The position numbers and the translations under genes are program-made. The notes under the pieces were generated by a model, which saw only the letters and a list, made by a program, of their open reading frames with translations, was not told the DNA's origin and ran no database searches. A stretch of DNA of 64,000 nt from Zygnema cylindricum (lineage: Eukaryota > Streptophyta > Zygnematophyceae > Zygnematales > Zygnemataceae): contig JBBHKE010001155.1 in NCBI GenBank assembly GCA_037447655.1, forward strand, positions 455,961 to 519,960, given 5' to 3'. Position 1 is the first letter of the stretch; each line of letters starts with the position of its first letter. Positions 21,744 to 64,000 of the stretch are shown piece after piece.

Positions 21744-21746
21744 TAT

Positions 21747-24577: not shown

Positions 24578-24578
24578 A

Positions 24579-24590: not shown

Positions 24591-25635
24591 TGTAGAAACT
24601 AATGGTTTTTATTAGTATTTTCTAGGTCTGAAAAGAAATATAGAAGCCGAGGCAGTCTATCTCTAACTTCTCTCTCCAACTCTCAAACTTGTCTGTCACT
24701 GAGAAATTGGAGAGGAAGCTAGAGCCATGGCTACCTTGGCTATCCTGAGGTTTACGGGAATTTTATATTAGGGTTTTTTTATTTAAAAGGTATGTGCCGG
24801 CGGCAGGATTTGATCCTTGTACCTACCGGCCGGCAGACAGGAAATAGCCGGTAGCCTTAGCCGTTAAGTCTAGCCGTAGTATTACGTAACATGTAGTGTT
24901 ATATTTATTTAAATGATTAGACGTGCGATAAATCATTTAACTGAAATGGATAACGGGACACATAGATCCAGTAATATATAATGTACGAATTACGGTACGG
25001 ACGAAAATCAATACCGCGCATTTGTTTCGTAAGTGAAACAAATACCGCGCATATATTAATTACGGCTACGATTAAATCCGAATTTAATCGGACGGCCGGG
25101 ATTAGCGCCGAGATTGAGGAGGAAGATTTCGGCGGGTTGTGGCCATCGCCACATCGGATGACGCGTGGCGAAATTCCGTTGGATTGTGGAATCTTTGGAG
25201 ATTATGACACCGAATCCGGATTTGACATGTGTCGACATTTTGGCCATGTCGTACAATGTCCGTACATAAAGTACACCGGCAGTTGTACTTTTGCGTATGG
25301 AACTCAATTCTGATTGGTTCCGTACATCAGTAGATAGAGTTTGTGAGAGAGATAGGACTTAGAAAAATTTAGAAGATAGGACCCTCTCTCCTAGAGAGCT
25401 TCTGTATAAAAGGTCAACTTTGACCCTCCATAACTTACTGCTCAGGGGAGCAAATTCAAAGATTCTTTTTGCTATCGACTCAGGGGAGTCTTGCCTTCAC
25501 AAGGGTGCAGGTGGTCAGGGTTTTTGTTTGCCAAGGTGGCAGTTTTTTTTGCTCAAACACAAAGGGGTCAGGATTATCCTAGAGGCTTCTTGGAAGCTGT
25601 TTACTCTGAGGATTTATGGAGGTCTCAGAGTTGCA
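24591..25635 (+). repeat. A1 3' LTR
   Basis: TGTAGAAACTAATGG to GAGTTGCA, 1045 bp, followed by the second ATTTG. It keeps the TATAAAAG box (25405-25412) that is altered in the 5' copy, and the antisense tRNA-like unit with B-box 24806-24816. It shares the leader hairpins TGCTCAGGGGAGCA and GACTCAGGGGAGTC with the 5' LTR. Confidence 0.95.
25405..25412 (+). promoter_or_regulatory. TATA box of A-family LTR
   Basis: TATAAAAG sits just upstream of the hairpin-rich leader. Equivalent boxes occur in C1 (TATAAAGG, 28547-28554 and 33869-33876) and E1 (TATAAATG, 35625-35632 and 38754-38761). The A1 5' LTR and the solo LTR instead have TACAAAAG. Position relative to GTAC motifs and primer site fits the U3 core promoter. 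Confidence 0.75.
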
Positions 25636-26061: not shown

Positions 26062-26498
26062 TGTTGTCCATAGCCTGTTTCAGCCATGGATTACTCTCGG
26101 AAGCACCACAGACTACCCCCAAAACAATTATGTTTCAGACAACACAGATTACTCCACAATAAACAAAATCACCTCAAACTGCACCAATATGTAGTTTAAC
26201 CTAGACAATATATTCTCCCAAAGTTGCAGCAAAATCCACAAAGGAATCTAAAAGATATGAGTTGTAGAATCCCCCAAAAATATCTGACAGCTTACCAAAC
26301 TAACCAGGTAAACTCCTCACAAAATTCTACAAAACAACAAAACAACTGAAAATAAACACACAAACAGTTTCTAGATCATACAAAATATCCACAAAGTCTC
26401 ACATCAAAATAACAACTAGAGTGATCACACTAACAAGTCAAATTTGCAAAAAAATAGTCTGTCATGTCTTTGATTAACTTAACTGTGATATAAAATTT
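26062..26498 (-). repeat. K-like LTR fragment, minus strand
   Basis: The minus-strand end reads GTCTGTGGTGCTTCCGAG, then ATGGCTGAAACAGGCTATGG and ACAACA. This is nearly the same as the 3' end of the K1 LTR (55480-55547). It joins B1 sequence at 26061. Only the LTR end is clearly homologous; the rest is AT-rich and is replaced by LTR H1 at 26499. Confidence 0.65.
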
Positions 26499-27437
26499 TG
26501 TGTTCCCCATTGGACTACAAGATTCAGAAAGCCTCTAAGTAGTTTTTAACTAACCCTTCTTCAGCTAGGATCACAGATACCCAACTAGGCAAGCAAGCAC
26601 TCTGACTGCACCCTTGTGCAGTCTGGACTCCTCTAAGTTCGCAGCAAAAAAAATCACTGAAAACGCCAAACCACGCGATTAGTTATCAAGTGGCAAAGAT
26701 GCCAAAATATATACAAGCTCATAGTGAGAGAGGCGGCTACCTCCTAAATCTCCTAAGTCCTAAACCCCTCTCACAACCCCTATCTATTCATGTACGAACC
26801 AATCAGAGAACTCTAAAGAACAGAAAGGTACTGTGGCCGGTGTATTTTTTGTACGGTGTGTGTACGACTCGGCCATTGAGTGGACGCCTGTCTCCACCAG
26901 ACTTGCCCTCATGCTCTCCGGGAATCGCGCTACCCAATTTTTTTTTGTCACGTGGCGCTAAGTCATGTCACGCTCGAAAAACTGACAAAGCCACCATTTC
27001 GCGATCTCGGCGATGATGCGTGCCGTCGGATCCAAACTGGCTTTGAATGTTAGCCGTTGAAAATCAATGTTAGGTAAATTTGTTTCAATGTTAGTTATCT
27101 GTAATTTTTTTTATCGGATTAGTGAATCCTGGCATATTTAAATACTCATCATACCCCATGTACTCTAATGTACTTCAACGAGAGGCGAGCTACGGCTGAC
27201 ACTATGCCTCGGTCTGCTTGTCAGAGGTTCGAGTCCTGCCGTACTCAACCTTTTTGTTAGAAGTGACTTATGTCACTTCTTCTAACCTTCTTGATGAGCC
27301 AAGGAAGCCATGGCTCCACCACCCTATCTGTTCTTCTGTGATTTCAACAAGTATGGGGCTTAGAGGTGTCAAGATTGTGTGCATTTTTGGCACACCTTAA
27401 CACCACCAAGGATTTCTAGGCCTTTCCCACATGTACA
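26499..27437 (-). repeat. H1: LTR of an M1/A-related copia family, minus strand
   Basis: Homologous to the M1 LTR over GTAC-rich and tRNA-like parts and to the window-edge LTR at 63884. On the plus strand it runs from TGTGTTCC to CATGTACA. It carries the perfect hairpin ACTGCACCCTTGTGCAGT (26605-26622), equivalent to hairpin 3 of the other families, and a plus-strand tRNA-like unit with B-box 27226-27236. No target-site duplication or internal region is attached, so it may be a solo or recombined LTR. Ends are approximate. Confidence 0.6.
27190..27236 (+). other. tRNA-like segment in LTR H1 (antisense to the LTR)
   Basis: It ends in the exact B-box GGTTCGAGTCC (27226-27236), with a weaker A-box-like region around 27188-27205. 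It aligns with the M1 unit at 13071-13128. On its own it might be called a SINE, but flanking similarity places it inside an LTR. Confidence 0.55.
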
Positions 27438-28791: not shown

Positions 28792-30418
28792 CTCTAGGGT
28801 GCCCATATTTGATTGATCGGAATTTCTTTATTGGGAAATGATGATGGAGGGAGAACTATTTGAGAAGCATCTATGGGGCATAGTGTGTGGACAAATTCGA
28901 TGCCCACCTCCACTTGGGTTTGGAGGGACACGTTTTTCTCGCACCTCCGCCTCTACAGTTGGTAGAACAGCTGCCACCATCACCGAGGATGAAGATGAGG
29001 AAGGAGAGGAGATTGTCATGGAAGAAGAAAAGGGAGGAGTTGCAACTCAAGTGACACCATTACCGAAGGCGATACCGGCAGCAGCACCACCAAAAACGGC
29101 GACAAGGGTTCAAACCGAAAGATCGGAGTATGAAAAGTGGAACAACAAACACAAGGTTGCTAAACTCTTAATTCTTAAAAGTGTAGCAAAGGGCATTGCC
29201 ATTCCCCTTATGCATGTGAAATCTTCATCTCAGATTTGGATATCACTAGTTAACAAATATAAGAGTGGATCATTGCAGCAGCAACAGTTGGCCGAAAATA
29301 AGATTGCAGCTTATACTTATAAAGGAGGAAGTATGAATAATTATTGCAATGATTTAGGAGCATTATTTGGTGAGTTAGAGATTGCAGGTAACTCATGGTC
29401 CAAGAGAAAAAGAGTGAACACATTAATGATGAAACTACCTGAAGAGTATGAGAATATCATTAACCGATTGCAGGACATGGGAGATAGCAATTGGAATTGG
29501 GATGACACAGTGGGAATGATTTTAGTGAAAGAAAGCACCATAGAGCCTAGGAGAGGGAGTCCAAGTGTTCAAACATTGTCTGCAAGAGCTGATTGGCAAA
29601 AGCGTGATGAGGAGAGAGGGAAAGATCCCTATCGAAACTTTGGTGGAAGAGGACAAGGAGGTGGCAGATTTGATAGACAGAGGAGAGGAACTTCTCGAGG
29701 AGGATTATATCACTTCTGCAAGAAACCAGGACACTATATGGCAGATTGTGTCAAACTTGCAGATCTTCGACTGAAAGATGGTCAAGGAACCTCAAGGGAT
29801 GGAGGAAAGAAAAAGGCTCTCGTGACTCAAGTTCATGATGAAGAAGTGGAAGGAAAAACTGAACCAGAAGAGGAGCTTGAGGAGCTTCTTCTTAATCCGA
29901 AAAACATTGAAAAGCATGTTGACACTCCACGGAGACAAAAGTGTGCTTTTGGAGGTAAGAGGGATCCACCCAAGGATGGGTGGATCATAGACTCAGGGGC
30001 TTCAATGCATATGTGCAAAGATAAGCGGTGGTTCACTAAACTGAGAAAGATCCCAACAGTTGAGATAGAGTACGGAGATGGTAGAGTGGAAACCACAAGT
30101 CTTGTTGGAACTCTTGACTTGAAGGTTCTAGTTGATGGAAAGGCCTCAATTGTAACACTCTCAGACGTTCTTTACATTCCACAGCTTAGCAAGAACCTAG
30201 TCTCAACAGCTATCCTAGATGAAAAGGAGTTTGAAACAGGAACTAGGAAAGGAATCTTGACAGCAAGCTTTGACAATGAGGTTTATTTCATAGCTGAGAA
30301 GGGCAGTCAAGGAATGTTCAGAATTTTTCTTTGCACTGAAAAAATGGTTTTCTTCTCGTATGCAAGTGAGATGATGCTTTGGCATAAAAGGTTGGGGCAT
30401 GTGCATCTAGATAGATAA
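28781..30418 (+). pseudogene. C1 Gag, zinc knuckle and protease
   Basis: The frame from the primer-site ATG has a stop at 28814; the open part 28838-30418 (526 aa) follows. Gag has LFEKHLWGIVCGQIRCPPP, AKLLILKSVAKGIAIPL, YKSGSLQQQQLAENKI and MMKLPEEYENIINRLQ. The zinc knuckle YHFCKKPGHYMADC has Tyr for the first Cys. The protease WIIDSGASMHMCKD keeps DSG, followed by VEIEYGDGRVETTSLVGTLD. The end (MLWHKRLGHVHLD) begins GAG-pre-integrase before a stop at 30416-30418. This is the longest open frame in the window. Confidence 0.9.
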
Positions 30419-30424
30419 AAGAAA

Positions 30425-31330
30425 ATGAAGAAAAAGGGAATAGTGGAGGGTATTACTTTTGAGGATGATGAGACCTTTGATGGTTGTAGTGGATGTGCCC
30501 AAGGGAAGATTCATAGACTTCCATTTCCAAAGGCAACCACATTTAGGAGAGAGAAAGTATTAGATCTAGTTCACACTGATGTTTGGGGACCTGCTAGGTA
30601 TGTTTCACATGGGGGGAAGAGATGGATGTTAACCATCACAGGTGATTGGTCTAGATACACGAAGGTATACTTTCTCAGACATAAGTCAAAGATATTAAGA
30701 TGTTTCAAAGAGTATAAAGTATGGAGTGAAAAACTACATGAAACCTCAATAAAAGAGATAAGAAGTGATAATGGGAAAGAATACACCTCAAGGGATTTTG
30801 AAGAATATCTTAAAGAAGAAGGAATTCATCATGAGAAAACTGTTCCCTATAATCCGGAACAAAATGGAGTAGCAGAAAGAGTGAATAGAACTTTAGGAGA
30901 TATGTCCAGAAGTATGTTAACTGATAAGAGGATAGGGTTGCAGTTTTGGGCAGAGTCTATAAACTATGCTAATTTCATCAAAAATAGAGTCCTAACTTCA
31001 GCAAATAAGGAGGAAACTCCGTATGAGAGGTGGACAAGAAGAAAGCCTGATTTGTCTAGTTTGAGAGTGTTCGGAAGTCAAGTCTACAGTTTGGATTCCG
31101 ATAAGACTAAATGGAAGTTAGAGGGGAGAGGGAATCTTGGATATCTTTTAGGATATGATGAGAGCACAAAAGGATAACGAGTGTATGACTTGAAAAAGAG
31201 AGATATAATTTTGGTAAAACACATAGTGGTGATGAATGAAGAGAAGCCCATTGATCCATTCAAATATAATAGAGAAGTCAAAATCAGATTTGAAACGGAT
31301 CAGTTTTCTGACTTTGACTTTTAAAATGAA
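30425..31330 (+). pseudogene. C1 integrase
   Basis: Same frame as gag. CSGCAQGKIHRLPFPK completes the zinc-binding part. D-D-E is intact: HTDVWGP, RSDNGKEY and NGVAERVNRT. The WTRRKPDLSSLRVFGSQVY and YLLGYDESTKG blocks follow. A stop at 31175-31177 interrupts the C-terminus, and the frame then continues VYDLKKRDIILVKHIVVM to about 31321. The core ORF is open for 250 residues. Confidence 0.9.
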
Positions 31331-32541
31331 GAGAAGGAATAGGGAGAAAAAGAAAAATCTGCGGATCTACCAAAAGAGAAGGAGGAAAGGACAACATCCG
31401 AGGCAACGCCACAATACGAAGTGGAAACCGATGAGGAACTTGATGAGACACCGGAATTGGAAGATAGGGGAGCTGAAAATCTCCCTAAACGAAACCCAAG
31501 GATGCCTTCCATACCGGCGTCCGATTTTGAAAGAGGGAAGAAGAAGTAGTAAACGACTTCAAGAAAGACAAGTAAATAACCAACTCACAAAGATGTCTCA
31601 CCCAGATGAACCTCAAACATACTTAGAGGCCATAAACACTCCAGAAAGTAGCCGGTGGATCACAGCTATAAATGAAGAAATTGCCTCTATCATGGAAGCC
31701 AATACATGGGAGTTGGAAGATTCTCCACCGGACCGAAAACCGATCGGATGTAAGTGGGTGTTTAAACTTAAATTAAACCCGGATAATACCATTGAGAGGT
31801 TTAAAGCTAGGTTAGTTGCAAAAGGTTATACTCAGAAAGAGGGGATAGACTACGAAGAAACCTTTGCACCTGTAGTCAGATTTCCTTCTATTAGAATCCT
31901 TTTAAGTATAGCCGCAGCGGAGGATATGGAAATCCACCAGATGGATATTAAAACTGCCTTTTTGCACGGAGAGTTGGAAGAAGAAATTTACATGAGGCAA
32001 CCGGAAGGATTCGTGGAAAGTGGGGAAGAAAACAAAGTTTGCAAACTGATAAAATCACTTTATGGGCTTAAACAAGCCCCGCGACAGTGGAATATAAAGC
32101 TCGACGAATTTCTGACCGGTTTGGGGTATATCAGAATTAGTTCAGATCACTCTATATATTTATTTGAGGATGAGAATGGAGTGATATTTATTGCTATTTA
32201 TGTGGATGATTTGTTGGTCTTAAGCAAGTCCTGAGATAAAATTAACAAACTAAAACGGGATCTTAGAAGCAGTTTTGATATGAAAGATCTCGGCGAAGCA
32301 AATTACATTTTGGGAATTCAGATGGAGAGAGATAGAGGGAATAGAATTATAAGACTCACTCAAAAAGAAGCAATTGGTAATTTGCTAGAAAAATTTCAGA
32401 TGGAAAAAGCAAACGGATGCACTACTTCTATGGATTTGAAAAAAGTGTCTAAGGGGAGTGAAGAGAGAGGAATATTGATAATTAATGATGAGATGGATGA
32501 GATAGAAAGATTTTTTTTTGAAAATATCCCTTATCGGTAGA
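31331..32541 (+). pseudogene. C1 linker and reverse transcriptase
   Basis: After an acidic linker the frame changes near 31540. RT then runs in ORF 31236-32234 with [77 protein letters not shown] and catalytic YVDD (32199-32210). A stop at 32232-32234 is followed by the same frame to 32540 (YILGIQMERD, IIRLTQKEAIGNLLEKFQ). A further stop lies at 32538. Few defects. Confidence 0.9.
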
Positions 32542-34827: not shown

Positions 34828-36001
34828 TGTTGATATTTGAGTATTTTCTAGGTTTTTATAGAAAAAAAGCAAAGGCAGTCTGTCCCTGACTCCCTTCTCC
34901 AAGCCCCCACACTTGTTGTAGTCACTGAAGGCTTGATAAGGAGCTAGAACCATGGTTGCCTAAGCTCACTAGAGAAGACAGGGAGTAGATTAGGAAGATT
35001 TACCAAAAGGTACTTGACAGACCCAAGAATTGATCCTGGTACTTGCCGTCCGTCAAGTTACCATAGCCGTTAGCTCTAACCGTTAAGTCTAGGACTAATG
35101 TTACGATATATAGGGTTTAATAAACATATAAATTGTTACACGTAGACTAATTCGTTTAACGCGGAATAGATACGTAGTGCATAGATACAGTTTGATTTTG
35201 TACGGAGTACCGTATAGGGACGGAACGGATACCGCGCATTTGTTTCGATAGCGAAACAAATACCGCGCGTTTAATTTCGCAAGCTAGGATTACAACCGGT
35301 TTTGATCGGACGGCCGCGATAGGCGTCGCAATCATGGAAGAGGTAATTTTGGCTTTTTACGGTCTTTGCCACGTCAAATGACATGTGGCGTGATAACATT
35401 GGACTACGGGAACTTCGGAGATTACGGGAACAAATCCCGATTTGACACGTGTCGACATTTTGGCCATGGATTACAATGGCCGTATAGAAAGTACATCGCC
35501 ACCTGTACTTTATGTACGACACAGTAATTTGATTAGTGCCGTACTTAAATAGATAGAGTTTTAGAGGGCGAATAGGACTTAGAAAATTTTGGGTAGGTAG
35601 CTGCCTATCCCAGAGAACACCTTGTATAAATGGCAAACTTTGGCCAGCCATAACTATCAATTTACTTAACCATTTTCGGTGATTCTTTTTGTTGCGGACT
35701 CAGAGGAGTTCAGGCTACACAGTGGTGTAGTCGTTCAGAGTTTTTGTCCGCCAGGGTGGCTTCATTTATAAGGGAAAGTCAAAGTGGGTGAATGTGTCCA
35801 AATATCATATTCTAACTTTGCATTCTGTGGTGGAACTGAGCACACATAAATTGTTACTTCACAAGGGTGAATCTATATTGGGGTTCTGACTGTCAAGGGG
35901 TCAATCATTTGGGTTTATATCAAGTTAGAAGTCGGCACTATCTGGATTAGCTTCTTTTGGATCTGCATACTCTGAGGGCCAATGGAGGTCTCATAGTTTC
36001 A
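34828..36001 (+). repeat. E1 5' LTR
   Basis: TGTTGATATTTGAGTATTTTC to TAGTTTCA. It holds an antisense tRNA-like unit (B-box-like 35026-35036, A-box-like 35073-35091), GATCGGACGGCC, GTAC motifs near 35490-35550, TATAAATG (35625-35632) and hairpins GGACTCAGAGGAGTTC (35696-35711) and CTACACAGTGGTGTAG (35715-35730). Confidence 0.93.
35026..35091 (-). other. tRNA-like segment in E1 5' LTR (antisense)
   Basis: On the minus strand TAGACTTAACGGTTAGAGC, nearly the A-family block, precedes GGATCAATTCT (B-box-like). The 3' LTR keeps the A-box part at 38202-38220, but its B-box-like sequence at 38155-38165 has drifted. Confidence 0.6.
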
Positions 36002-37956: not shown

Positions 37957-39129
37957 TGTTAATATTTGAGTATTTTCTAGGTCTTTATAGAAAAAGAGCA
38001 AAGGCAGTCTGTCCCTGAATCCCTTCTCCAAGCCCCCACACTTTTTGTAGTCACTGAAGGCTTGATAAGGAGCTAGAACCATGGCTGCCTAAGCTCCCTA
38101 GAGAAGACAGGGGGTAGATTAGGAAGATTTACCAAAAGGTACTTGATGGACCCAAGAATTGATCTTAGAACTTGCCGTCCGTCAAGTTACCATAGCCGTT
38201 AGCTCTAACCGTTAAGTCTAGGACTAATGTTACGATATATAGGGTTTAATAAACATAAAAATTGTTACACGTAGACTAATTCGTTTAACGCGGAATAGAT
38301 ACGTAGTGCATAGATACAGTTTGATTTTGTACGGAGTACGGTATAAGGACGTAACGAATACCGCGCATTTGTTTCGATAGCGAAACAAATACCGCGCGTC
38401 TAATTTCAGCGGCTAGGATTACAACCGGTTTTGATCGGACGACCGCGATAGGCGCAACGATTACGAAAGAGGTACTTTTGGAGTTTTACGGTCTTTGCCA
38501 TGTCAAATGACACGTGGCGTGATAACATTGGATTACGGGAACTCCGGAGATTACGGGAACAAATCCCGATTTGACACGTGTCGACATTTTGGCCATGTTG
38601 TACAATGGCCGTATAGAAAGTACATCGCCACCTGTACTTTATGTACGACACAGTAATTTGATTGGTGCCGTACTTCAGTAGATAGAGTTTTAGAGGGGGA
38701 ATAAGACTTAGAAAATTTTGGGTAGGTAGCTGCCTCTCCCTGAGAACACCTTGTATAAATGGCAAACTTTTGCCAACCATAACTATCAATTTACTTGACC
38801 ATTTTCAGTGATTCTTTCTGCTGCGGACTCAGGGGAGTTCACGCTACACATGGGTGTAGCTAGTTAGCGTTTTTGTCTGCGAGGGTAGTTACACTTATAA
38901 GGGAAAGTCAAAGTGGGTGAATGTGTCCAAATATCATATTCTAACTTTGCATTCTGTGGTGGAAATGAGCACACACAAAGTGTTACTTCACAGGGGTGAA
39001 TCTATATTGGAGTTTTGACGGTCAAGGGGTCAATCATATGGGTTTATATCAAGTTAGGAGTCGGCACTATCTTGATTAGCTTCTTTGGATCTGCGTACTC
39101 TGAGGGCCAATGGAGGTCTCAGAGTTTCA
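37957..39129 (+). repeat. E1 3' LTR
   Basis: TGTTAATATTTGAG to GAGTTTCA, 1173 bp, followed by CTTAG. TATAAATG lies at 38754-38761. Hairpins GGACTCAGGGGAGTTC (38825-38840) and GCTACACATGGGTGTAGC (38843-38860) are intact. Confidence 0.93.
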
Positions 39130-39433: not shown

Positions 39434-40804
39434 TGTCATGCCGCATCGTGTCGGTTGCCCGCGCGCACGATATAATCCACGCACGCGCAGTACATTGCAA
39501 GCATGCGCGGTATTTATCACGCGCGCGCAGTATTTCTCACGCACGCGCGGTATTTCTCACGCGGTCGCAGTATTTCTCACGCACGCACTGTATTTCTTAC
39601 GCGCTCGCATAATTTCTCACGCACGTGCAGTATTTCACACGCACGCGTGGTATTTTGCATGCACTCGCGGTTTTTTTACATGCACGCGCAATATTCCGCG
39701 CGCATGCACAGTTTTGGGCACGCGCGCAAGATTTTATGCATCCATGCGCGATTTCATGCATGCACGCACGATTTAATGCATGCACGCACGATTTTCGCAC
39801 GCATATATGTTTCGTTCTCACGTGCGATTTAATTTGGATTCATATTTTTAGGTTTCATTGAATAGTACTAATATCGTGCGATATGTTTCATTTCATGCGT
39901 AGGTTCACGATTATCGAAGTTGGTCGCGAAACATCGTTTGGGCGACGTGACGCGATTTCAAGTATTTCGTGCTAGACCTTTTATTTCGTGCGATATGGTT
40001 CATTTCGTGCGATATATTTCGTTTCGTGCGTATGCACGCGATTTCGGGAGTATCGACGTGAAGTATCTTTTGGAGGCGCATAGCGATTTCCGGGCGACGT
40101 TTCGATTCACTATCTATTTATTTAAGTCGCGAACCCATGTAGGTTCGCGCACACATGTAGTTAGGGAGGGTTTTTACCCCGGACGGTGGATTTTGTCAAG
40201 CGTACGGCAGACGATGTTGGCCGCCTATTGGCCAACATCTTTAGTAGTTTCATGCATGTAAAGTAGACTAGACGTAGGCTAATTTTGCTTAGGCCTAGCG
40301 TAGCTCTTACTTAGCCTAATTCTTAGACTTAGAGAATTTAGCTTTTGGATAAGAATTTTCTCTTAGCAGCGGAGCTTTTCTCTTGCTCTCTCTCTCACCG
40401 ATTGCCCACGTGTCTTTCTTCTCCTTGCTAGCTAGTTGTAGAGGTTGGATAGGTTAAGAATATTTCCCCTTTCATTTCTGCCCACGTTTTTAATCCACAC
40501 GGCCTAAGGCCACGTCCGGAAGGTTTCCCTCCAAACTTGGTCTTTTGGTGGAAGTGTGGAATTGGAGATCGTGGGGGAGCACATCTGGACCTTGCTGTGC
40601 CTTCCTCGGGCAGCTTGACGGTTTGGTTGGGTGTTTGTGTCTTGTTTGTATTTCGTTTGGCTTGAAAGGAGTGTATTTTTGATCGGATTTGGATTTTCCC
40701 TTGTTTCGGTTGGAATATTTCTTGCTTTGTTGTCGTAACGGGATAACTCTTGTAGGGAATGTGATAAATACCAGAGAGCCTAGTGGCTACCTCTTGGCTT
40801 AGCA
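39434..40804 (+). repeat. F1 left LTR
   Basis: TGTCATGCCGCATCG to GGCTTAGCA, 1371 bp, matching the right copy (about 1356 bp without the A2 insertion). It opens with a CpG-dense minisatellite (39470-39800), then a run of TTTCGTGCGATATG phrases (39870-40035), then a unique part. The pentamer to its left (GTTAT) is not repeated at the far end. Confidence 0.8.
39470..39800. repeat. CpG-dense minisatellite in F1 left LTR
   Basis: About 15 units of roughly 20 bases with consensus TATTTCTCACGCACGCGCAG, changing later to GATTTYATGCATGCACGCAC. Alternating CG/CA dinucleotides give high CpG density and Z-DNA-forming potential. Reading frames of Arg/Ala/His repeats across it are artefacts. The right LTR has the same array at 45455-45760. 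Confidence 0.88.
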
Positions 40805-42479
40805 TTCTTGTCCAAAAGCTACACTTTTTAAAAATCACATTTTCTAAAAGTTTATGTTTATAAAAATAAATTATTAAAAATAAAAATTATATTTCATTAA
40901 AAAAATGTTACTTTTCAAATTCAGTTTTTATTCTTGTTTTTTTCTTCCCATTTTCCTACCTATTTACCTTTCATTTTCAGTTTTACTTCTTAGTTTTGTG
41001 TGATAAAATAAAGCTAAAGGAAAAAAAATTATATAAAAATTACATTATTTTCAATATAAAATCTATCTTTTCATTTCTAGATTTTCTTCCACCTTTTATT
41101 TGAGTTGGTTTTTTTTCCTTTTGATCTAGCTTTATTTTACTACAAGCTTTATTCTACATTCTCTCTATTTTTGCTTTCGCTTTCAGTTTTGCTTTGGGAA
41201 AATATATTATAAAAATAATTTAATTTATAAATTTTGTTTTATAAAAAAATAAAAACATTTTGTTTTGGTTTTTTGTTTTATTCTTTCTTGCTTTCAATTC
41301 TTGTCTTCTATCTTGCTTCCACTCTATTTCTGGTCTACAGATTTAGGTCTGATTTTGTGTCAGATTTTTAGGGTTAATCTGCGGAATTAAGGTTTGGCTG
41401 CAGATTTAGGGTTTTGGCCGCAGATTTAGGGTTTGGGCGGATTTAGGGTTTATTTTTTGGAATTCTTAACCCTAGGTCAGCATATTACCATTCCTTGATC
41501 GCAGATTTTTGATTTTTGCAGCGTGGTATTAGGGTTTGGGAAACCTTTTTGCCCAATTTTACCGTATTTTGTGTTTTATTTTGATTTTTTCTCAATATTC
41601 CTCATATTTCTTTCCTTTGGTGCAACTTAATTTGCTATCTTATTGATGTTTGGATTGTGTTGGATTTGATATTTTCTTTATTTTCCTCTTACCAACCTTC
41701 ATCATTCAAAACACTTAGCAAAATAAAAATATATATTCATATATATTAGAATTGCACGAATTATAACCTAAAATTATCATTGTTTTATAGTTGGGTATAG
41801 CGTGGCATAGCGCTAATACGCATACCCTAGCAGGATACTAATTGCTTGGGTGTTTAGCGGTGGTTCTTGTTACAATTATTTGGAATCAGAGCGGGTTCGG
41901 TTCCAGGGAGCCTTGCAAAATCCGACTTGCCTCGACCAAGTCCGGTTCACTTTGAGTACTCACTAGAGTATTAAAAATGTTTGTAAGTATCACGATGCTT
42001 TGCGGGTGCAGGAGCGTTCCTTTGTAATTTGGACACTCGTGTAGGGGTGCGGTGTGTATTGGTTTTATTACAAACCTTTCTTTTTGAGCATTTGCATTTT
42101 CCTTGCTTTCGTTGCACGTTATCTAGCGGTGAGTGGCCTTGAGGTTTTTATGTGACTATCTGGATTGGATTTTCTTTCATAGATCTTGTCGTTGGTGGCA
42201 CTGTTTAGACAATTTTCTGTCTGTGCCGTTGTAGATCTGTACCGAAAGGTGTCTGGATAGTTTCTCTGTTTGTTTTTATAGATCTGGCACTTTGGCCTTG
42301 CCCCATTGTTTGCAGGGTAGAGGTTTTGGTATTCCGACTTCTTGCTAGATCTGACCACCGGGTCTTAATAGATACTTCGTGTGTTAGCTTGTTTTGTGTG
42401 GTTTGGCCTTCCATTTGACGCACCTCGATTAGGCCGTTCCGTTTTTTCCTAGTCGTAATCGAGGGTTTTCTCTTCGTTT
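40805..42479 (+). other. F1 leader between LTR and gag
   Basis: AT-rich sequence, then three AGATTTAGGGTTT-type phrases at 41395-41455 (plant telomere-like TTTAGGG words), then a part homologous to G1 (41740-41900 against 59775-59930). TTGGAATCAGAGC at about 41881 resembles a tRNA-Met primer site but lies about 1.07 kb beyond the LTR end. No other primer site was found next to the LTR. Confidence 0.5.
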
Positions 42480-44084
42480 ATGCCCACGGATTGGGATAAC
42501 TTACGTTATCAATCCGGATCTACCCGCGGCGGGACAATTTTCCGTCCACCGCAGTTAGATCTTTCTAGTTTCTCCGAGTCTACGGACGCACCAGTTTCGG
42601 TTGCGGCCCCTAGATCTCCGTCTGTTCGGTCAGTATTCACCACAACCTCATTATTATCCTCAGTTTCCTCTAGGTCATCCCTAGATAGAACCGAAGGAGA
42701 CTTTCAGGGGAAATCTTTTTCCATCCTCTCACATTTCAGTTTTTCGGTCGATCCAATTTTGGAACCACTAGTGCATTCTTCCTTTGACGACATGGCTTCC
42801 TCTTCAGAGGGGGGCATGGGGAAAATGCAATTTTGCTTTTCAAGGATGAATGATACCATGTCATTATCCCATTTTTGTATACTCTATAATACCGAAATGC
42901 GTGATTTGGCATTTCGCTATCAAGATCAATTTTATCTTCGTGTGGCATTTTCTCTTCTTGGGCGGTAACTCAGAGGTTCGGCCCTTACATTATATTCCCG
43001 CAAGTATGATCCTATACTCGCGATGACAGAATTTTCCCCTCATTTTGCCGGTACACCCGAGGTCATAGGTCAAGCGGATTTTCCGTTCCAGGCCGCTTTT
43101 CTCGAGGTCTTAGATGCCCAAGGTGTTGTCCTAATTCCCGCAGTCCCAAAAATTTCTCGCCAATATGCTTTGGCCGCTCGTGCTGCTGTCCCAACACGAC
43201 CAGGGATGATAATTCCGTTGCGAGATCCACTATCTGTTATGTTCGATTTCTTAGAAGCCGAGTATCGGATGCAAAACCCCGATCAGGTGAAAGAATTGAT
43301 GAATTTTACGCGTAAACTAGGAGAGACCGGCCCTGCTTTACGTGCTCGCATGGAGACTTTGCGAGAAGCTTTACTGGACCTGATGTCCGATGCGGAAGCT
43401 GTTCAAAAATTTGTTGGACAATTTCCAGATCAATCAAAACGTTTTATACAAAGTCATCTCACTCAGACTTACGGTCTGAAATTTACATTTGATCAAGCCG
43501 CTCAATATGCGGTAGAATATGAGATGCAATCATGTTGGTGGGAAGCGCATGATCGTTCGGAAGTTGCTTCACCACTTTCTCCACCTGGTAGCCCATGGCC
43601 CAACAATAGGCCTCTAAAGACGTCGGCCATGGGAAATCCGCCATTTAATTCTGGAGAGCGATTGTGTTTCCGATGTGGAAACACGGGGCACGATGCCCGC
43701 ATGTGCCCGGATAAGTCGGCCACATGTACCCATTGCAACCAAAAGGGACATTATGTTCAACGTTGCCATGTTAAAGATCCTAATTTTTCCTATTGGAATC
43801 AGATTCAAAACGGTGGAATTCCTGCCCGTTCTGCCAAGCCGGTCACTCCTCCTTCCGAGACAGAGAAAGAGGCGACTCGGCCTAAGACCTCTCGCAGAGA
43901 GAGGGAAAAAGCCGAGTTACAAGTTATGATGGCCGCCATGATGAAGGAGCAATTCGCTGCCTTCATGTCCGAAATGAAACTCCAGTTCACGGGGATGGCA
44001 AGGACAGTCATCCACACGCCATCGTTGGTTTGTCGAATCCTCCGGGATTCCACGGTCCAACAACGGGTAGCCACTTTCGATTAG
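42480..44084 (+). pseudogene. F1 Gag with two zinc knuckles, one internal stop
   Basis: From ATG 42480: a Ser/Thr/Pro-rich N-terminus, then MSLSHFCILYNTEMRDLAFR and LRVAFSLLGR, a stop at 42966-42968, then the same frame to 44084. The capsid-like part has MNFTRKLGETGPALRARME and FVGQFPDQSKRFIQSHL. The knuckles CFRCGNTGHDARMC (43665-43706) and CTHCNQKGHYVQRC (43725-43766) are both intact CX2CX4HX4C. A basic/acidic coiled region follows. G1 has the same protein, and lacks the stop at this position. Confidence 0.85.
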
Positions 44085-45194
44085 GGATCCCCTGATCATA
44101 ATCGGGACGGTAAATTACAGAATTCGCGTATTCCACTTTCTTTCGAGAAAGAATCTCTCTCTCCTCTACCAGACACAGCTTCCTCCATTGTGGTTGAAGC
44201 TCTCATCATTCTCGATAATACCATACATGATGCACATCGAGTCAAGGAAAGGCTAAGCATCCTCTCTACCATAATTGATAAGGCCCCCAGGGCCTCTCCC
44301 TTTCCTAATGAGGTTCCCAAAGCCTCTCCCCTTGTTGGCGAGTTCGCTGCAGCCGCCGATTTGAGGGCGTTGCAATTGAACCATAGTCTTTCAGTCATTC
44401 AGCCGGTTACCGCGGATGAGCACCGTGACCTTGATCCTCACATCAGTTTCCTAGACAATTCTCGAATGTCCTTCTCTGTTAACGGTGTTTCTCCTTCTCT
44501 CCTTCTCATGGACACCGGAGCCAAACCCGTGATCCTTGGATCTGGATTTGCGCTCAAGCTTGGTCTGACAGCAGATTAGCTCCAAGCCACGTCTACTCGG
44601 CTTCTTACTTAAGCCGGTACCACGGAGTCGGTGCTTGGAATTACCAAGGACCCGCTTGTCTTTCGGTTTCATAACGGAACCGAGTGTAAGTCCGTAGAGG
44701 TTTCTGTCCGAGCATAGGTCACCAAATCAAACGACTATGAATACTTAGTGGGACAGGATGTTATCTTCCGAGTCGGTGGAGGAGTAGATATGCATGATCA
44801 GACCTTCTCCTGTCGTCCCTCTAATTTTCCCGGCCGCAAAATCCGCCTCCCTCTTGTCTCTGCTTGTAAGCCGTTGCCCACTATGGCACATTTGGCTTCC
44901 GCTCTCCCTGCATTTTCTAGCATCGACCTTCGAGATAGTTTTAGTGAGCCTGGTTTTCTCCTCGACTCGCGTCATCTCTTTGATACCGTTGACACTGAGG
45001 TCTTTCCATACATTTTCCATGTAGTGGATTGCGATACTAATGGGATGTTGAGTTTGCCGGGGGTTCACACATGTACAGGTGGTGATCAAGGGTTCCACAT
45101 GGAGTGCCTCTCTCCTCCATTATCTTTCAACCCGGCTGACCATTGCTGGTGTTCAAGGCCCTCAGCTGTTTTAACCAGCTCCTCCACACGCTAA
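44085..45194 (+). pseudogene. F1 aspartic protease and PHD-finger-like C-terminus
   Basis: Same frame as Gag, interrupted by four stops between 44082 and 44718. The protease is LLLMDTGAKPVILGSGFALK with DTG at 44511-44519 and a second lobe YLVGQDVIFRVGGGVDMHDQ. The last open part (44748-45194) ends in a Cys/His pattern at 45030-45161: Cys, then C-TGG-DQGFHMECLSPPL, then C-W-C. This is like the C-terminal half of a PHD finger (D-x-G-F-H-x2-C-L-x-P-P-L...W-x-C), with some Cys missing. PHD fingers read histone tails. Confidence 0.65.
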
Positions 45195-45403: not shown

Positions 45404-46599
45404 TGTCATGCCGCATCGTGTCGGTTGCCCGCGCGCACTATATAATCCACGCACGCGCAATAGTTTGCATGCATGCGCGGTGTTTATCACGCGCGCGCAA
45501 TATTTCTCATGCACGCGCGGTATTTCTCACGCGCTCGCAGTATTTCTCACCCACGCGCGGTATTTCTCACGCGCTTGCATTATTTCTCACGCACGCGCGG
45601 TATTTTGCACGCACGCGCGATTTTTTTACATGCACACGCAGTATTCCGCGCGCATGCACAGTTTTGGGCACACGCGCGAGATTTTATGCATCCACGCGCG
45701 ATTTCAAGCATGCACGCACGATTTAATACATGCACGCACAATTTTCGCACGCATATATAAGTTTCGTTCTCACGTGCGATTTAATTTCGATTCATATTTT
45801 TAGGCTTCATTGAATAGTACTAATTTCGTGCGATATGTTTCATTTCGTGCGTAGGTACACGATTTTCGAAGTTGGACGCGAAACATCGTTTGGGCGACGT
45901 GACGCGATTTCAAGTATTTGGTGCTAGACCTTTTATTTCGTGCGATATGGTTCATTTCGTGCGGTATGTTTTGTTTCGTCCGTATGCACGCGATTTTGGG
46001 AGTATCCACGTGAAGTATCTTTTTGATGTGCATCGTGATTTTCGGGCGACGTTTCGATTCACTATCTATTTATTTCAGTGGCAAACCCATGTAGGTTCGC
46101 GCGCACATGTAGTTAGGGAGGGTTTTTACCCTCGGACAGTGGATTTTGTCAAGCGTACGGCAGACGATGTTGGCCGCCTATTTGCCAACATCTTTAGTAT
46201 TTTCATGCATGTAAAGTAGACAAGACGTAGGCTAATTTTGCTTAGGCCTAGTGTAGCTCTTACTTAGCCTAATTCTCAGACTTAGAGAATTTAGCTTTCG
46301 CACAAGAATTTTCTCTGGGCAGCGGAGCTTTTCTCTTGCTCTCTCTCTCTCACCGATTACCCACATGTCTTTCTTCTCCTTGCTAGCTAGTTGTAGAGGC
46401 TAGATAGGTTAAGAATATTTCCCCTTTTATTTCTGCCAACGTTTTTAATCCACACGGCCTAAGGTCACATCCGGAAGGTTTCCCTCCAAACTTGGTCTTT
46501 TGGTGGAAGTGTGGAATTGGAGATCTTGGGGAAGCACATCTAGACCTTGCTGTGCCTTCCTCGGGCAGCTTGACGGTTTGGTTGGGTGTTTGTGTCTTG

Positions 46600-47646
46600 T
46601 GTAGGAATTAATGGTTTAAAGTATTTTCTAGGTCTAAATAGAAACAAAGAAGCCGAGGCAGTCTACCTCTAACTTCTCTCTCCAACTCTCAAACTTGTCG
46701 CAGTCACTGAGAAATTGGAGAGGAAGCTAGAGCCATGGCTACCTAAGCTATCCTCAGGTTTACGGGAAATTTATATTAGTCTACGGATTAATTACTAAAA
46801 GGTATATGCCGGCGGCAGGATTTGATCCTGGTACCTGCCGGCCGACAGCTAGGAGATAGCCGGTAGCCTTAGCCGTTAAGTCTAGTGGTACTGATGCATA
46901 GTATATAGTACGATAATTATTTATATAGATACACGTAGAATAATTCATTTAACTATAACTATTTACGGGACACATAGATATGGAATTGTAAAAGTACGAA
47001 TTGCGGTACGGATATGAAATCAATACCGCGCATTGATTTCGGAAGCGAAACAAATACCGCGCATGTATTTATTACGGCTACGATCAAAAACGAGTTTAAT
47101 CGGACGGCCGGAAATTGCGCCGAGATCGCGGAAGGAGAATTCGGCGGTTTGTGGGCAGCGCCACATCGGATGACACGTGGCGATGTAACATTGGAGCGCG
47201 GCATCTCCGAGGATTTAAGGAGCGAATCCGGATACTCCACGTGTGGACATTTAGGCCATATCGTACAATATCCGTACATAAAGTACACCGGCAGTTGTAC
47301 TTTTACGTACGGAACTGAAATCTGATTGGTTCCGTACATCAGTAGATAGAGTCTGTGAGAGGGATAGGACTTAGAAAAATTAGAAGATAGGACCCTCTCT
47401 CCCAGAGAGCTTCTGTACAAAAGGTCAACTTTGACCCTCCATAACTTACTGCTCAGGGGAGCAAATTCAGAGATTCTTTTTGCTATCGACTCAGGGGAGT
47501 CTTGTCTTCACAGGGGTGAAGTTGGTTAGCGTTTTTGTCTGCCAGGGTGGCAGTTATTTTTGCTTAAACACAAAGGGGTCAGGATTATCCTAGAGGCTTC
47601 TTGGAAGCTGTCCACTCTGAGGACTTATGGAGGTCTCAGTGTTACA
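46600..47646 (+). mobile_element. A2: solo LTR of family A
   Basis: A 1047-bp A-family LTR (TGTAGGAATTAATGG to GTGTTACA) with target-site duplication TCTTG at 46595-46599 and 47647-47651 and no internal region. It arose by LTR-LTR recombination after a full insertion. It holds the clearest hairpin set: GGTCAACTTTGACC (47423-47436), TGCTCAGGGGAGCA (47450-47463), GACTCAGGGGAGTC (47488-47501), CTTCACAGGGGTGAAG (47506-47521) and CTGCCAGGGTGGCAG (47539-47553). The tRNA-like unit is at 46818-46884 on the minus strand. Confidence 0.95.
47450..47553 (+). promoter_or_regulatory. Leader hairpin cluster, family A reference copy
   Basis: Four perfect short inverted repeats in a row, about 10-25 bases apart, each with a loop built around AGGG: TGCTC/GAGCA, GACTC/GAGTC, CTTCAC/GTGAAG and CTGCCA/TGGCAG. 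They lie 30-130 bases downstream of the TATA-like box, in the transcribed R/U5 part. C1, E1 and H1 have equivalents with changed but still paired stems, which points to RNA structure. Confidence 0.75.
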
Positions 47647-58528: not shown

Positions 58529-59442
58529 TTGCCGCAAGGCGTCGGCGGGTATTATTGCTCAATCCTATACTAATTCGCGTTGTGTGACGTGATAGGTTTG
58601 TAATTTTGCGTACAAATAAAGGTACAAGATAAACAAAGGCCATACTAGATGCACGTACAATAAAACGGGAAACGGACGTGGAACTGGATTGCGGTTAGGC
58701 ATTGGTTGTCAAGAACTCAAACGGCTCCGAACTTGACAGAAACCCTCGGAGGTTTATGCATTATTTTTTGTAGTGTAGGAAGGGTTTTTATCCTCAAGGT
58801 GTACATGAAAGGCATCCTGAGGCAACCACACAGCGGCCGTCTCTAGAAACTGGCAGCGTGTGCACATACAAACCGCTTGCTCAAAGACATATAGGAATTA
58901 GTGTAGCTGTACGATAAGCAACAACATAGGATAAAAGCCATGTGGCTGCGTAAAAATAGCAGCAAATTACAGCACGGGAATCTAACATTGGGAATCTGTC
59001 ATTTTTTGGCAATCTTTGTTCTCGGAATTTGTCAAACTTTGTCCGGTTAGAGTTTCAGTCGTATATTTAGTATCAAGCTAGTTGTTGAATTAGGGATTTT
59101 TTTCCGAATCATTAGTTTTTGCTAGCTCTTGTCTTTGAGCTTTCTAACTTTTCTTCTCTTGTACCTAAGTCCTTACCTGATCTACCGGCGCAAGCCAGCC
59201 TACAAGGTTTCCCTCCAGACTATGTTCCACTTGCCGTGGGTTATGAATCTTGGTGTGCACATCTAGTGTTTTCAGGTTGCTTGTGCGTTGACCCCGCAGT
59301 CTAGCATCTTTCCAGTCTAACGTCAAAAGTGTCGGCTTTCTCGGCTTCTTCGTTTGGTTACGGATGGTTTGGTGCATGCTGGTTGGACTCCTATAGGGAA
59401 TATTAAAGACTTCATGGCCTAGTGGCCACTAACGCAAATGTT
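58529..59442 (+). repeat. G1 5' LTR (approximate)
   Basis: It starts near TCTTGCCGCAAGGCG. From about 59200 it aligns with the end of the F1 LTR (AAGGTTTCCCTCCA, then TAGGGAATATTAAAGAC, then CCTAGTGGCCAC). The end at ...AACGCA is placed by that alignment. There is no second copy in the window, and the CpG minisatellite of F1 is not present. Confidence 0.55.
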
Positions 59443-60471
59443 CCCGTGCTGTAATTTGTCTTTTTTTTTTCAGTCAGTATTAAATCGATGTTTTGTTTTC
59501 TTTCCCAGTCTAGTTGTTTTCTTTGGATTGCTTTAATCTATTTTGATTCTATATCTTTAGGGTTTTTTCTTGTTTGGTGGACTATGGGTTTGATATTTCT
59601 GATTTTGTCTGTAAATCCGGTATAGTTTCCTTTTTCTGTCTACCTACTAGATTAACTCATTCAGAAAACCTAGCGAACCTAACAACTTAAAAAAAAAATA
59701 TACATATATATTAAAAACCAAGAGAAAAAAAAATATATATATATATATATAAATATATATATTTAAATATATAAATTAGGTTGCACGAATTATCACATAA
59801 AATTATAACTGTTTTAATAGTTGGGTAGAGCGTGGCTTAAAGCTGATACACATACCCTAACAGGCTACTAACTACTTTGGCATTGAGCTGTGGTGTGATA
59901 ACGATCACGTGGAACCGAAGCCACTCTGGAAGGCGTTTATAGTATCCTACTGGATGTTATAGCTTTAGGTGAGTAACAGATCCTTGTGGGTGCAGGCGCG
60001 ACGTAGGCTATCGAGTGTACTCGCTTTATTCTTCCCATAGGACATCATTATTGCATGGTCCTAGATCTGACCTTTATTGGTCTTGAGTCGCAGTTTCTTG
60101 CTTTATTACATCTGGCAGTATTGGCCTTGAACAGTTTCCTGCTTTATTAAATCTGGTCGTGTTGGCCCTGAACAGTTTCTTGCTTTATTACATCTGGTCG
60201 TGTTGGCCCTGAACACTTTCTTGCTTTATTACATCTAGCCGTGTAGGCCTTGAATAGTCTCCTGCTTATTACATCTGGGCGCAAGTGGCCTTGTATAGGT
60301 GATATGAGTTTGCTTCGTGTGGCTTGATGTGAGTGGAATTGTGAACGGGTAGACTAACTCTGGTGACGCAAGATAGACCAAACATCTTGGTGTTTTGGTT
60401 TGCGGTTATTGGTATACTTCTATGTGTGTTCAACATTTAGTTGCATTCGGATAGGACGATCTTCTGGTTAA
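59443..60471 (+). other. G1 leader
   Basis: It contains an AT-only (TA)n stretch (59690-59775), a block homologous to the F1 leader (59775-59930) and a 41-bp tandem repeat in five copies (60091-60295; unit with TTGCTTTATTACATCTGG and GTTGGCC). No ORF. Confidence 0.7.
60091..60295. repeat. Five-copy 41-bp tandem repeat in G1 leader
   Basis: Units start at about 60091, 60132, 60173, 60214 and 60255, each carrying CTGCTTTATTACATCTG-like and GGCCYTGAA words. Copies 2-4 are nearly identical. F1 has related sequence at 42110-42310 without a clear array. Confidence 0.85.
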
Positions 60472-62060
60472 ATGCGAACAAACTGGAATAATTTATAGTT
60501 TCCGCCTGGTACCACCAGAAGCTCAAGTTCTTACCGGTGCCCTCCAAAAGAGTCGATTACGGTTGGATCCCCTCCGATATCTTTCCCAAACTCAACAATT
60601 CAGTCGCAATTTTTAGGATCACCCAGTGCATCTAGATCTAGTTTTTCTTCTCTCCGAAGGTCTACGTCATCTATTTTTTTGTCTTTCACCAACAGTTCGA
60701 GGGAAGATTCGAACACCGACTAACTTGACATACAGGGTCTAAGGCTACCGTTGTCAATTTTTTCAGTGAACAGTACCTTTCACACTAATTCCAATCCTTC
60801 TAACGTGGACATGGCTTCATCCATGGACACCGAAAGAGGAAAACATCATTTTTGTTTTTTTGGTCTCAAGGACACCATGTCTTTGTCACACTTTTGCATG
60901 CTTTTTGATACCAAAATGCATGACCTCGCATTTCGGTACCAAGACCGTTATGACCTACGGGTTGCTTTTTCTTTGCTAGGAAGATACCTCAGAGGATCTG
61001 CCCTATCTCTTTATACACCGAAATTTGAAGAAACTTGTGTTATGACTGAAAAAGCACCCGCCTATGCCGGAGCTCTAGCCATACTTGGCAGCTCCGAAGT
61101 TCCTTACCAACGCGATGTCCCTGCAGTTTATGACTCCGCGGGCAATGAAATTTCACCTGCAATACCAAAGGTTCCTCATCAATTTGCAGTGGCACCTAGG
61201 GCTGTAATTTTGGCTAAACCTAAAATGCTGGTCCCTCTAAGAGATCGAGTCTCGTTAATATTCAATTTATTACAGGACGATCGAATGCAGAATCTTGACC
61301 AAGTCAGAGAATTAATGAATTTCGAATGCAAACCGGGTGAAACAGCCCCGACATTGCGGTCACGTTTGGAAACTTTGTGTGAAGCCCTATTGGATCTAAT
61401 GTCAAAGGCTGAGGCGGTACAAAAATATGTGGGTCAATTTCACACACAATCTCGGTTGTTCATTCAGAATCGTCTGACCGAAGCATATGGCCTTAAATTC
61501 ACTTTCAAGCAGGCTATAGAGTATGCTGTAAAGTATGAAATGCAGACTAGCTGGTGGGACACTCATGAGCTACCAAACCTTCACATCACGATTCCTAATC
61601 AAATCCTACTTTGAATCTTAGCAGAGGGCTGACATGTGGCCAGAAGACCTCAGGGCCGCCAGAGATCTTCCCGGCGACTCATGGGAGTGTGTATATGTTT
61701 CGGTCGGTCATAGTGGCCCGCGCCTGGTAATTCGACAAAGGCAGACCGCGGTACTCATTGCAATCAAATAGGTCATTACGTACATCGATGTCACATTAAA
61801 AATCTTGATTTCAATTTTCAAAATCAAATCAAAAACGGCGGTATACCTGCTCGCTCGGCAAAATTGGCCACTCCACCTAAAGGGGAAGAGAAAGACACTC
61901 CCCCCAAAATCAGCCAGAGGGACCGAGATAGAGCAAAGACGCAGGCTATTGTGGCGGCCATGATGAAGGAACAGTTTGCCGTGCTTATGGCGCGGGTCAA
62001 ACCGCAATTAACTGTAATGGCCCGAACCATATGCCATATGCCCTCCTTTGCTGGATGATC
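60472..62060 (+). pseudogene. G1 Gag with degenerate zinc knuckles
   Basis: ATG 60472 aligns with the F1 start. Stops at about 60496 and 60721 precede the long open part to 61614. This has MSLSHFCMLFDTKMHDLAFR, FSLLGRYLRGSALSLY, MNFECKPGETAPTLRSRLE and YVGQFHTQSRLFIQNRL. Knuckle remnants lie at 61690-61800 (HCNQIGHYVHRC without its first Cys). The charged tail KMKEQFAVLMARVK-like (61864-62058) matches F1. Confidence 0.8.
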
Positions 62061-62830
62061 TCTCCGAGAGATAACTGTCCAACAGCGGGGAGCTCTTTTC
62101 AAAGGGACTCTCGATCATAATCATGAGTCTAAATCCATTAACAATCGCAAACCATTATAATTTGCTAAAGAACGTAAAACATCACCGCTGAGGCATTAAC
62201 CATTCTAGAGGGGAGTATACAAGATGCTTATAACGTCAAAGAACGGTTTGCATTATTGTCCACTATGCTTCTTGAATCGACTAGCGAGGGTAAATCCTCA
62301 GATCTACGCATCAACACGCGCGTACAAGCACTTTGGAACCATCGTAGTACCCCTCTTCGCTATTACCCATGAAGAGCGTTCTAGTTTTACGCCACACATC
62401 AGTTTTTTGAATAACAGGCTAGGTGTGTTCACAGTTTATAGGGTAGCCCTAGCTTTACCTCTTATGGACACAAGGGCAAAACCAATTATCCTCGTATCAA
62501 ATTCTGCCAAGAAAAGAGGTCTTACTGCAGATACACTACAACCCGCTACCACTCGTTTGTTGTCTTCCCCAGGGACCACAGAACCAGTCTTGGGTATGAC
62601 AAAACAACCACTCTGTTTTCATTTTCAGGTTTAATGTGAAACCGATTTCGTAGAAATATACGCTCACGCCTTGGTCACCAAGTGTAGTGATTAAGAATGC
62701 TTAGTTGGTCAAGACGTTATTTTTCGAGTGGAGGGGGGTTTTGATATGCATGATCAAACATTTTCGTACAGACCTAACAATTTTCCAAACCTCAAATTTT
62801 GATTACCTCTCATCTCGCCTCGGTAACCTA
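62061..62830 (+). pseudogene. G1 aspartic protease, active site altered
   Basis: ORF 62224-62634 contains HISFLNNRLGVFTVYRVALA and LPLMDTRAKPIILVS. The DTG triad is DTR (62467-62475), so the protease is inactive. The second lobe reads CLVGQDVIFRVEGGFDMHDQ (about 62700-62760) with stops before and after. Same frame as Gag and as the start of the methyltransferase. Confidence 0.75.
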
Positions 62831-63883
62831 TGCCGACTACGGCCCATTCTGCGTTTGTCTTGCCAGCCTATGCCGCAATTAGCATAGGCGCCAAAATTCT
62901 TGAATCTTTAACATCGGACAAAATCTTACCACATTTGCAAGGAGTACCGGAATTATTTGGCACACCCGGATTTATCATTGACTCTTCAGAATTTTACACA
63001 TTGTATAAATTTACGGTACCGATTCCCTTATTCAGTATTCTGGATCCACCCGCTATTGCATTGGATCCTTCCGGGTTCTTGCCCATTAGCTGGAAACCAG
63101 TCAGTTTACAACCTAACCCAAACTTTTTCGTTATCTTAGACCTTTTTGTAGGAATAGGTACCACACTTCTCTCTTGCCTTTGGAACGGTCTTCTAATTAA
63201 ACAATATTATCTGTAGATATTGACCCTTTGGCTAGACGCGCTCAGTTACACCACTGTCAAATCTTGCATGAACAATACCCTCACCTCTTACCACAGTCAG
63301 CATTTCACAGAATGCACTCCGCTATACCATAGGATATTCGCCTTATAGGAAATTATCATTTGTAAGAATTAGAATTGATCGATCTCCTTTTCGCCGAATG
63401 AGAATGTCATGGTATGTTTAGGGCTGGGAAGGGTTTAGGTCTTGCAGATCTGCGTACTAAATTGTTCTTCGAGGTAGTGCACTTATCCATTTTTTTTAAA
63501 TCACTGAACCGCCCTTTTGGATACATCTTAGAAAACATCGCAGCTTATAATTATCCTTGACCCACAGTTCTCGCATATGACAAACGCATTAAATCATTAC
63601 TTCGACCGCCACTAATCATAGATGTCGCACGTCACGGCTCGCTAGCCCACCGAGTTCTTTCCAAGTTGACTAACTTGGTGGCCATACGCCGGCTCTGAGA
63701 AGCTAACCTCGTTGTCCGGCCACCTAAACTTTCCATTTAAGAAGCACTTGTTCCATTTCATAACGTCCAGTTATGTGTCCAGACATACTATCCTCCTGCA
63801 TTTTGTCTTAACATCCCTAGCGAGCCATTACGTGTACTTCCTACACTAGTCGCATATCCGAAATCTCACGCATATTGCAATTC
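62830..63883 (+). pseudogene. G1 DNMT3-like C5-cytosine methyltransferase, broken
   Basis: An open frame to 63213 ends with motif I-like ILDLFVGIGTTL (DLFVGIG 63139-63159; S-adenosylmethionine binding). A one-base shift follows and the domain continues in the next frame: VDIDPLARR (63213-63239); DLLFAE-stop-ECHG with a Cys at 63405-63407 where the PC catalytic motif IV is expected; KGLGLADLRTKLFFEVVHL (63429-63485); LENI (motif VI, EN at 63531-63536); IID-6 residues-SLAHR ending 63653. At least six stops. The order, and the K-G-L...LFFE and S-x-AHR blocks, resemble DNMT3/DRM. It would methylate cytosine in DNA. Confidence 0.7.
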
Positions 63884-64000
63884 TGTGTCCTCCATTGGAC
63901 CACAGAATACAGGAAGCCTCTAGATAGTATTTAACTAACCCACTTTAAGCCACAACCACTGCTGCCCAAGAAGGCAAACTGACAATTTGACTGCACCCCT
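63884..64000 (-). repeat. H2: edge of an H-family copia LTR, minus strand
   Basis: TGTGTCCTCCATTGGAC onward aligns with H1 26499-26628 (GGAAGCCTCTAGATAG, TTTAACTAACCC, GACTGCACCC). It interrupts the G1 methyltransferase and continues beyond the window. Confidence 0.7.

Follow-up and report, generated by a model that had tools for sequence, protein, structure and literature searches.

A decayed long terminal repeat retrotransposon of Zygnema cylindricum with a probable DNMT3-like cytosine methyltransferase relic behind its protease

Cytosine methylation is a main defence against transposons, and elements carrying a methyltransferase of their own are therefore puzzling; the capture of a methyl-binding domain was also reportedly described by de Mendoza in 2019. 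Among the closest described systems, de Mendoza et al. (2018; PMC5890265) place a DNMT3 in the Pol of a Klebsormidium Gypsy element (Ka/Ks <0.2), count two lineages with element-borne methyltransferases in that year, and describe retrotransposon DNMTs as able to methylate CG de novo, which the SymbioLINE enzyme did not do in yeast. A 2025 survey (PMC12344493) adds DNMT3 in streptophyte and dinoflagellate elements of the long terminal repeat (LTR) and DIRS kinds, the LTR type being termed Copia and not Gypsy, and according to Morozov et al. (2019; PMC6338049) land plants are without transposon DNA methylases. Here we describe G1, a decayed LTR retroelement occupying the last 4 kb (~59.75-63.88 kb) of a 64,000-nucleotide stretch of the Zygnema cylindricum genome (contig JBBHKE010001155.1, positions 455,961 to 519,960), called the window below. 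G1 and all features listed here for it lie on the + strand.

Our analysis indicates that G1 is probably a dead LTR retrotransposon in which a DNMT3-like C5-cytosine methyltransferase was encoded in the Gag-Pol frame, directly after the protease. Like KnitGypsy-Dnmt3 of Klebsormidium nitens (PMC5890265), it is an LTR element whose Pol frame includes a domain related to DNMT3 and free of the DRM rearrangement. Compared by description only, G1 differs in that its domain directly follows the protease and that a related copy holds a PHD finger; DIRS-like repeats are described for KnitGypsy. The C5-methyltransferases SymbioDIRS-Dnmt3 and SymbioLINE-Dnmt from Symbiodinium (PMC5890265) are likewise retrotransposon-encoded, but they belong to dinoflagellate DIRS and LINE elements, whereas G1 is of LTR type and has a gag and a protease. 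Methyltransferases are already known from LTR elements; the slot behind the protease and the PHD relic of the related copy were not found described in the literature searched. We recognised no paper there on a PHD finger and a methyltransferase in an LTR element, which is no proof of absence, and the accessible portions of PMC9033089 and PMC12477816 describe no such element.

The reading frame and the order of domains are demonstrated by the element itself, as a single frame carries gag, knuckle region, protease, linker and methyltransferase motif I. The gag is open from ATG to stop (60811..61614) and 54% identical to that of a second related copy in the same window, copy 2, which lies at 41.7-45.2 kb on the + strand. 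Between the two gags the mismatches fall 62/44/133 on the three codon positions (196 codons compared), hence the element family formerly evolved as a working protein. The zinc-knuckle region follows in the gag frame (61714..62055; 58% identity with copy 2 over 105 positions), and then the aspartic protease region (62209..62634; 40% over 95 positions), in which the active-site motif has decayed to DTRAKP. The end of the protease and a linker (LVGQDVIFRV...MHDQTFS, 62635..62826) are interrupted by three stops and recognised by frame and by homology with copy 2; together with the start of the next piece they show 41% identity to it (138 positions). That piece, open frame A (62827..63213, 129 stop-free codons), begins with linker common to copy 2 and goes on into methyltransferase motif I. 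The remainder of the methyltransferase relic lies in frame B (63204..63878).

Pfam lists neither a gag nor a protease family for the knuckle and protease pieces of G1, and the naming of its gag and protease therefore rests on copy 2. There, a gag with two CCHC knuckles and one stop (42792..44084) matches PF00098 at 22.2 bits, above the cut-off of 20.8, and is followed by a protease (LLMDTGAKPV, 44085..44579) with a weak match to Asp_protease_2 (E 0.0076, short of the family cut-off). A gag with zinc knuckle followed by an aspartic protease, as in LTR retrotransposons, is thus found in copy 2, to which G1 is homologous. The relation extends upstream, where a block at 59749..59894, just 5' of the primer-binding site and either LTR end or leader, is 80% identical to 41723..41864 in copy 2. 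Copy 2 then has the primer-binding site TGGAATCAGAGC (41881..41892), the sole site in the window with at most two mismatches when the + strand was scanned; it corresponds, in 11 of 12 bases, to the plant initiator-tRNA-Met (tRNA, transfer RNA) site. A probable decayed primer-binding site of G1 (59910..59922) matches it in position. From the style of the protease and the primer site, G1 is probably of Ty3/gypsy type. A long repeat pair was not found in 59000-64000, G1 running to the window end, and no reverse transcriptase or integrase of this element was recognised in the 64-kb window; Rfam at gathering thresholds and a tRNA scan gave no matches. The G1 leader between primer site and gag contains a 41-base tandem repeat in 4.6 copies (60091-60278), unlike the leader of copy 2, in which Tandem Repeats Finder reports none.

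The motif strings quoted in the original prediction were all recovered in the order given there on the + strand. Motif I, ILDLFVGIG (63133-63159), is in the gag/protease frame; its LDLFVGIG at 63136 has the FxGxG signature, and no other match to this pattern occurs in any of the six frames of the window. All further motifs are in frame B: VDIDPLARR (63213-63239), DLLFAE (63381-63398), ECHGMFR at the motif IV position (63402-63422), KGLGLADLRTKLFFE (63429-63473), PFGYILENI as motif VI (63513-63539) and LIIDVARHGSLAHR (63612-63653). LENI at 63528 aligns with FENV of DNMT3A, and SLAHR with SAAHR. The residue ahead of the motif IV cysteine is normally proline; in G1 the cysteine is aligned, but glutamate precedes it and a stop stands one codon further up (63399), which fits a decayed copy. 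The order I, IV, VI, VIII on one strand is unrearranged, unlike in DRM. Of the remaining C5-methyltransferase motifs, X was not seen before 63879 and IX is a resemblance by eye (PLRVLPTLVA, 63825-63854). The motifs differ in how telling they are: the KGL..LFFE pattern and S[AL]A[HQ]R each have two matches in the six-frame window, and loose patterns for motifs IV (15 matches) and VI (10) are not rare on their own.

Decay is equally plain. The predicted frameshift is a single change out of the gag/protease frame between about 63160 and 63213, and the predicted stops number six among the 225 codons of frame B. We infer from the sequence that this copy is dead and makes no active enzyme. The readable methyltransferase is bounded by a repeat piece (63879..63998) which is 75% identical to 26494-26613. 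A continuation of the enzyme into this piece was rejected, as the mismatches are evenly spread over the codon positions (9/10/11) without third-position bias, and because of this non-coding pattern the readable enzyme ends at 63879. These two occurrences of a 120-base repeat piece are an observation in their own right; the one in G1 adjoins the methyltransferase relic.

We then compared a joined read-through (frames A and B translated across the frame change) with collections of protein families. Pfam, NCBIfam and PHROGs each list a single family for it, in every case a DNA methyltransferase: PF00145 (E 0.039) and TIGR00675 (dcm; E 0.0098), both under their curated cut-offs, and PHROG 363 (DNA methyltransferase; E 0.065). 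The expected Pfam match of the two-frame translation was accordingly seen as the sole listed family, but not above the cut-off. Frame B alone gives PF00145 at E 0.11. The only Pfam listing for frame A alone is NdhO (E 0.11), so that motif I is identified by its pattern, position and reading frame. Against PDB, 11 of the 13 matches of frame B at E ≤10 (best E 0.14) are DNMT3A or DNMT3C, largely as variants of a single protein, and four of the five matches of the joined read-through are DNMT3A. These library and PDB results are independent of an alignment including G1 with which the sequence sets for our own hidden Markov models (HMMs) were picked, and which may favour G1 somewhat in the HMM scores.

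Three such HMMs were built. One has 70 animal-type DNMT3 domains, being those that spanned the domain among 120 listed proteins (from 1808 at E ≤1; 102 of the 120 had at least 250 amino acids), another 36 C5-methyltransferases from viral contigs (44 loci, of which 43 were tried and 38 yielded a protein, two over-long ones being excluded), and a last one both sets combined. Frame B scored 11.1 bits with the animal HMM (single-test E 1.2e-5), 22.7 bits with the viral one (2.6e-9) and 24.1 bits with the combined one (8.8e-10). Among 1569 overlapping six-frame pieces of the window, the highest scores were 5.8, 8.4 and 9.2 bits in the same order, and among 4000 shuffles (2 x 2000) they were 4.9, 4.5 and 4.7. 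The proposed check with DNMT3 profiles hence places frame B above every window piece and shuffle for all three HMMs; frame A alone scored from -1.2 to -1.6 bits. A weak signal of methyltransferase type at 38.3 kb (9.2 bits) was rejected, as it belongs to a repeat with four other copies in the window (69-93%) and stops interrupt its frame.

The frame of copy 2 that holds the end of the protease (44718..45194) also holds the linker and runs on into HTCTGGDQGFHMECLSPPLSFNPADHCWC, a PHD-like finger at about 45030-45152. For the whole frame PF00628 is the only Pfam family (E 0.14), and for the trimmed piece it is the better of two (E 0.031), in both cases below the cut-off. In PDB, 27 of the 29 matches (best E 0.016) are to PHD-finger proteins, namely KAT6A/B, UHRF1 (many of the matches), AIRE, DPF3, Lid and KMT2D; the remaining two are Zika NS1. 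By eye, some cysteines of the full C4HC3 set are missing, and the finger fits the second half of the PHD pattern (C..GFH.EC.PPL...C). The two copies are clearly homologous up to about 63045 (G1) and 45029 (copy 2), so PHD finger and methyltransferase occupy the same slot. Comparison with frame B detects no methyltransferase in copy 2, no PHD finger was seen in the ~30 residues ahead of motif I in G1, and no further part of copy 2 was recognised behind its frame end at 45194. Copy 2 may formerly have had the methyltransferase and lost it later. The prediction that the family captured a methyltransferase holds insofar as the relic stands in the Gag-Pol frame after the protease of a backbone confirmed by copy 2, but carriage by the whole family does not follow, copy 2 having a PHD relic.

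That the likeness to C5-methyltransferases is a chance match in decayed sequence seems to us highly improbable. No library match exceeds its curated cut-off, and searching the large protein collection with the joined frames gave nothing at E 10, but against this stand the HMM, alignment and pattern-count controls, the collinearity of the motifs, and the fact that one enzyme class recurs across four collections (PDB, Pfam, NCBIfam and PHROGs). As to the kind of enzyme, DNMT3 is provisionally favoured over other C5 enzymes. The catalytic domain of animal DNMT3A/3B/3C has in common with G1 the motif order, KGL..LFFE, ENV/ENI and S-x-AHR. It is conceivable, if doubtful, that a C5 enzyme of viral or bacterial type was involved instead of a captured host DNMT3, given that frame B reaches roughly twice the score with the viral-contig profile that it has with the animal one. 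The viral-contig enzymes had, however, themselves been chosen for their similarity to DNMT3A and G1, the HMM reference sequences included no recognised DNMT3 from a plant or alga, and among methyltransferases the PDB matches are DNMT3A/3C alone. These enzymes, taken from IMG/VR (L001-L044), also differ from G1 in coming from viral contigs and not being seen as retroelements, and where the motif VIII pattern was found (19 of 36) it reads SAQ.R or SGQHR. In two of the contigs, L002 and L018, a DNMT3-like methyltransferase domain is part of an open frame of ~3600 codons.

A separate pseudogene, for instance a processed host DNMT3, might have inserted beside the protease of an already decayed element and never have been part of Gag-Pol. 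This would agree with the PHD finger and the lack of a detectable methyltransferase at that place in copy 2, with the termination of the readable methyltransferase at another repeat, and with there being only one methyltransferase-bearing copy. Yet motif I shares its open frame with linker common to copy 2, which is also the frame of gag and protease, and the published precedent (PMC5890265) puts DNMT3 in Pol; hence we regard such an insertion as quite unlikely. A Gag-Pol-encoded, DNMT3-like enzyme is what we prefer, and several results weigh against it. The top eight alignment scores all belong to viral-contig enzymes, which again speaks for a viral type, and the mean for animal DNMT3 is low. 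Insertion ends were not noticed between about 63045 and 63133, a point against the pseudogene, but this was without a systematic search. Finally, the CpG values do not support CG self-methylation by the G1 family: observed/expected CpG is 0.84 in G1, 0.96 in the methyltransferase region and 0.90 in copy 2, compared with 0.82 in the whole window, which is copia-rich with 41% GC. This composition and the plant-like primer site would point to a streptophyte host. No CpG loss from self-methylation was seen in the one copy sampled, by a test that is blind to CHH methylation; the moss DNMT3 acts on CHH (PMC6453930). Two copia-like elements recognised by eye in the window (20200-24600 and 28800-32250), with long open frames, have low CpG ratios of 0.53 and 0.45.

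Concerning function, a retrotransposon-encoded de novo methyltransferase that would target the element's own complementary DNA (cDNA) appears to be the best-supported reading, on the analogy of the cases already published. In an intact ancestor the methyltransferase would have been produced as part of Gag-Pol, and the protease would then have released it or left it inside the particle. The enzyme could there methylate freshly made double-stranded cDNA, either ahead of integration or as it takes place, and new copies would arrive bearing the marks of silent host DNA. Escape from responses to unmethylated foreign DNA, or less damage to the host, might be the benefit; activity, cDNA target and benefit are what we infer from the relic and its place. 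The chromatin modules (PHD reader and methyltransferase) could alternatively have served targeting more than methylation and have guided integration, like the chromodomains of chromoviruses, Ty3/gypsy elements which resemble G1 as LTR elements with a chromatin-related domain. The PHD relic at the corresponding place in copy 2, the conserved linker ahead of it and the undepleted CpG would suit such a role, which we nevertheless consider unlikely, as PHD finger and methyltransferase were not seen together in one copy, the Cys/His set of the PHD finger is incomplete, and the chromodomain is another domain in another position, at the integrase end and not after the protease.

Intact relatives were sought in several collections. 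The methyltransferase read-through against 5.8 billion proteins gave none at E 10 (3205 candidates), and an alignment of the two gags against the same number gave none among the 7993 candidates scored, those sharing most words. Searches with gag found no relative in viral contigs, nor in bacterial and archaeal genome contigs.

Other repeats were also recorded in the window. A dispersed repeat is present at 38590-38859, 35480-35732, 47261-47522, 25241-25539 and 19849-20116, these being 67-70% identical to 26581-26876, which has the opposite orientation. A 20-base unit, CACGCACGCGCAGTATTTCT, forms tandem arrays at 39478-39695 and 45448-45645.

Further, we speculate that in the intact family a cassette of PHD finger and DNMT3-like methyltransferase stood between the protease and the reverse transcriptase, a suggestion that is tentative and rather doubtful. 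If true, the cassette would recognise histone states and lay down DNA methylation at or on the element's own insertions, so that a retrotransposon would supply its own silencing mark; in a land plant, this would also run counter to the statement of Morozov et al. (2019; PMC6338049). As a further LTR element with a methyltransferase right behind the protease, G1, together with the PHD relic of copy 2, would suggest repeated uptake of chromatin domains at this place in Pol, and it would allow one to ask whether enzymes of this kind mark the cDNA of the element that encodes them.
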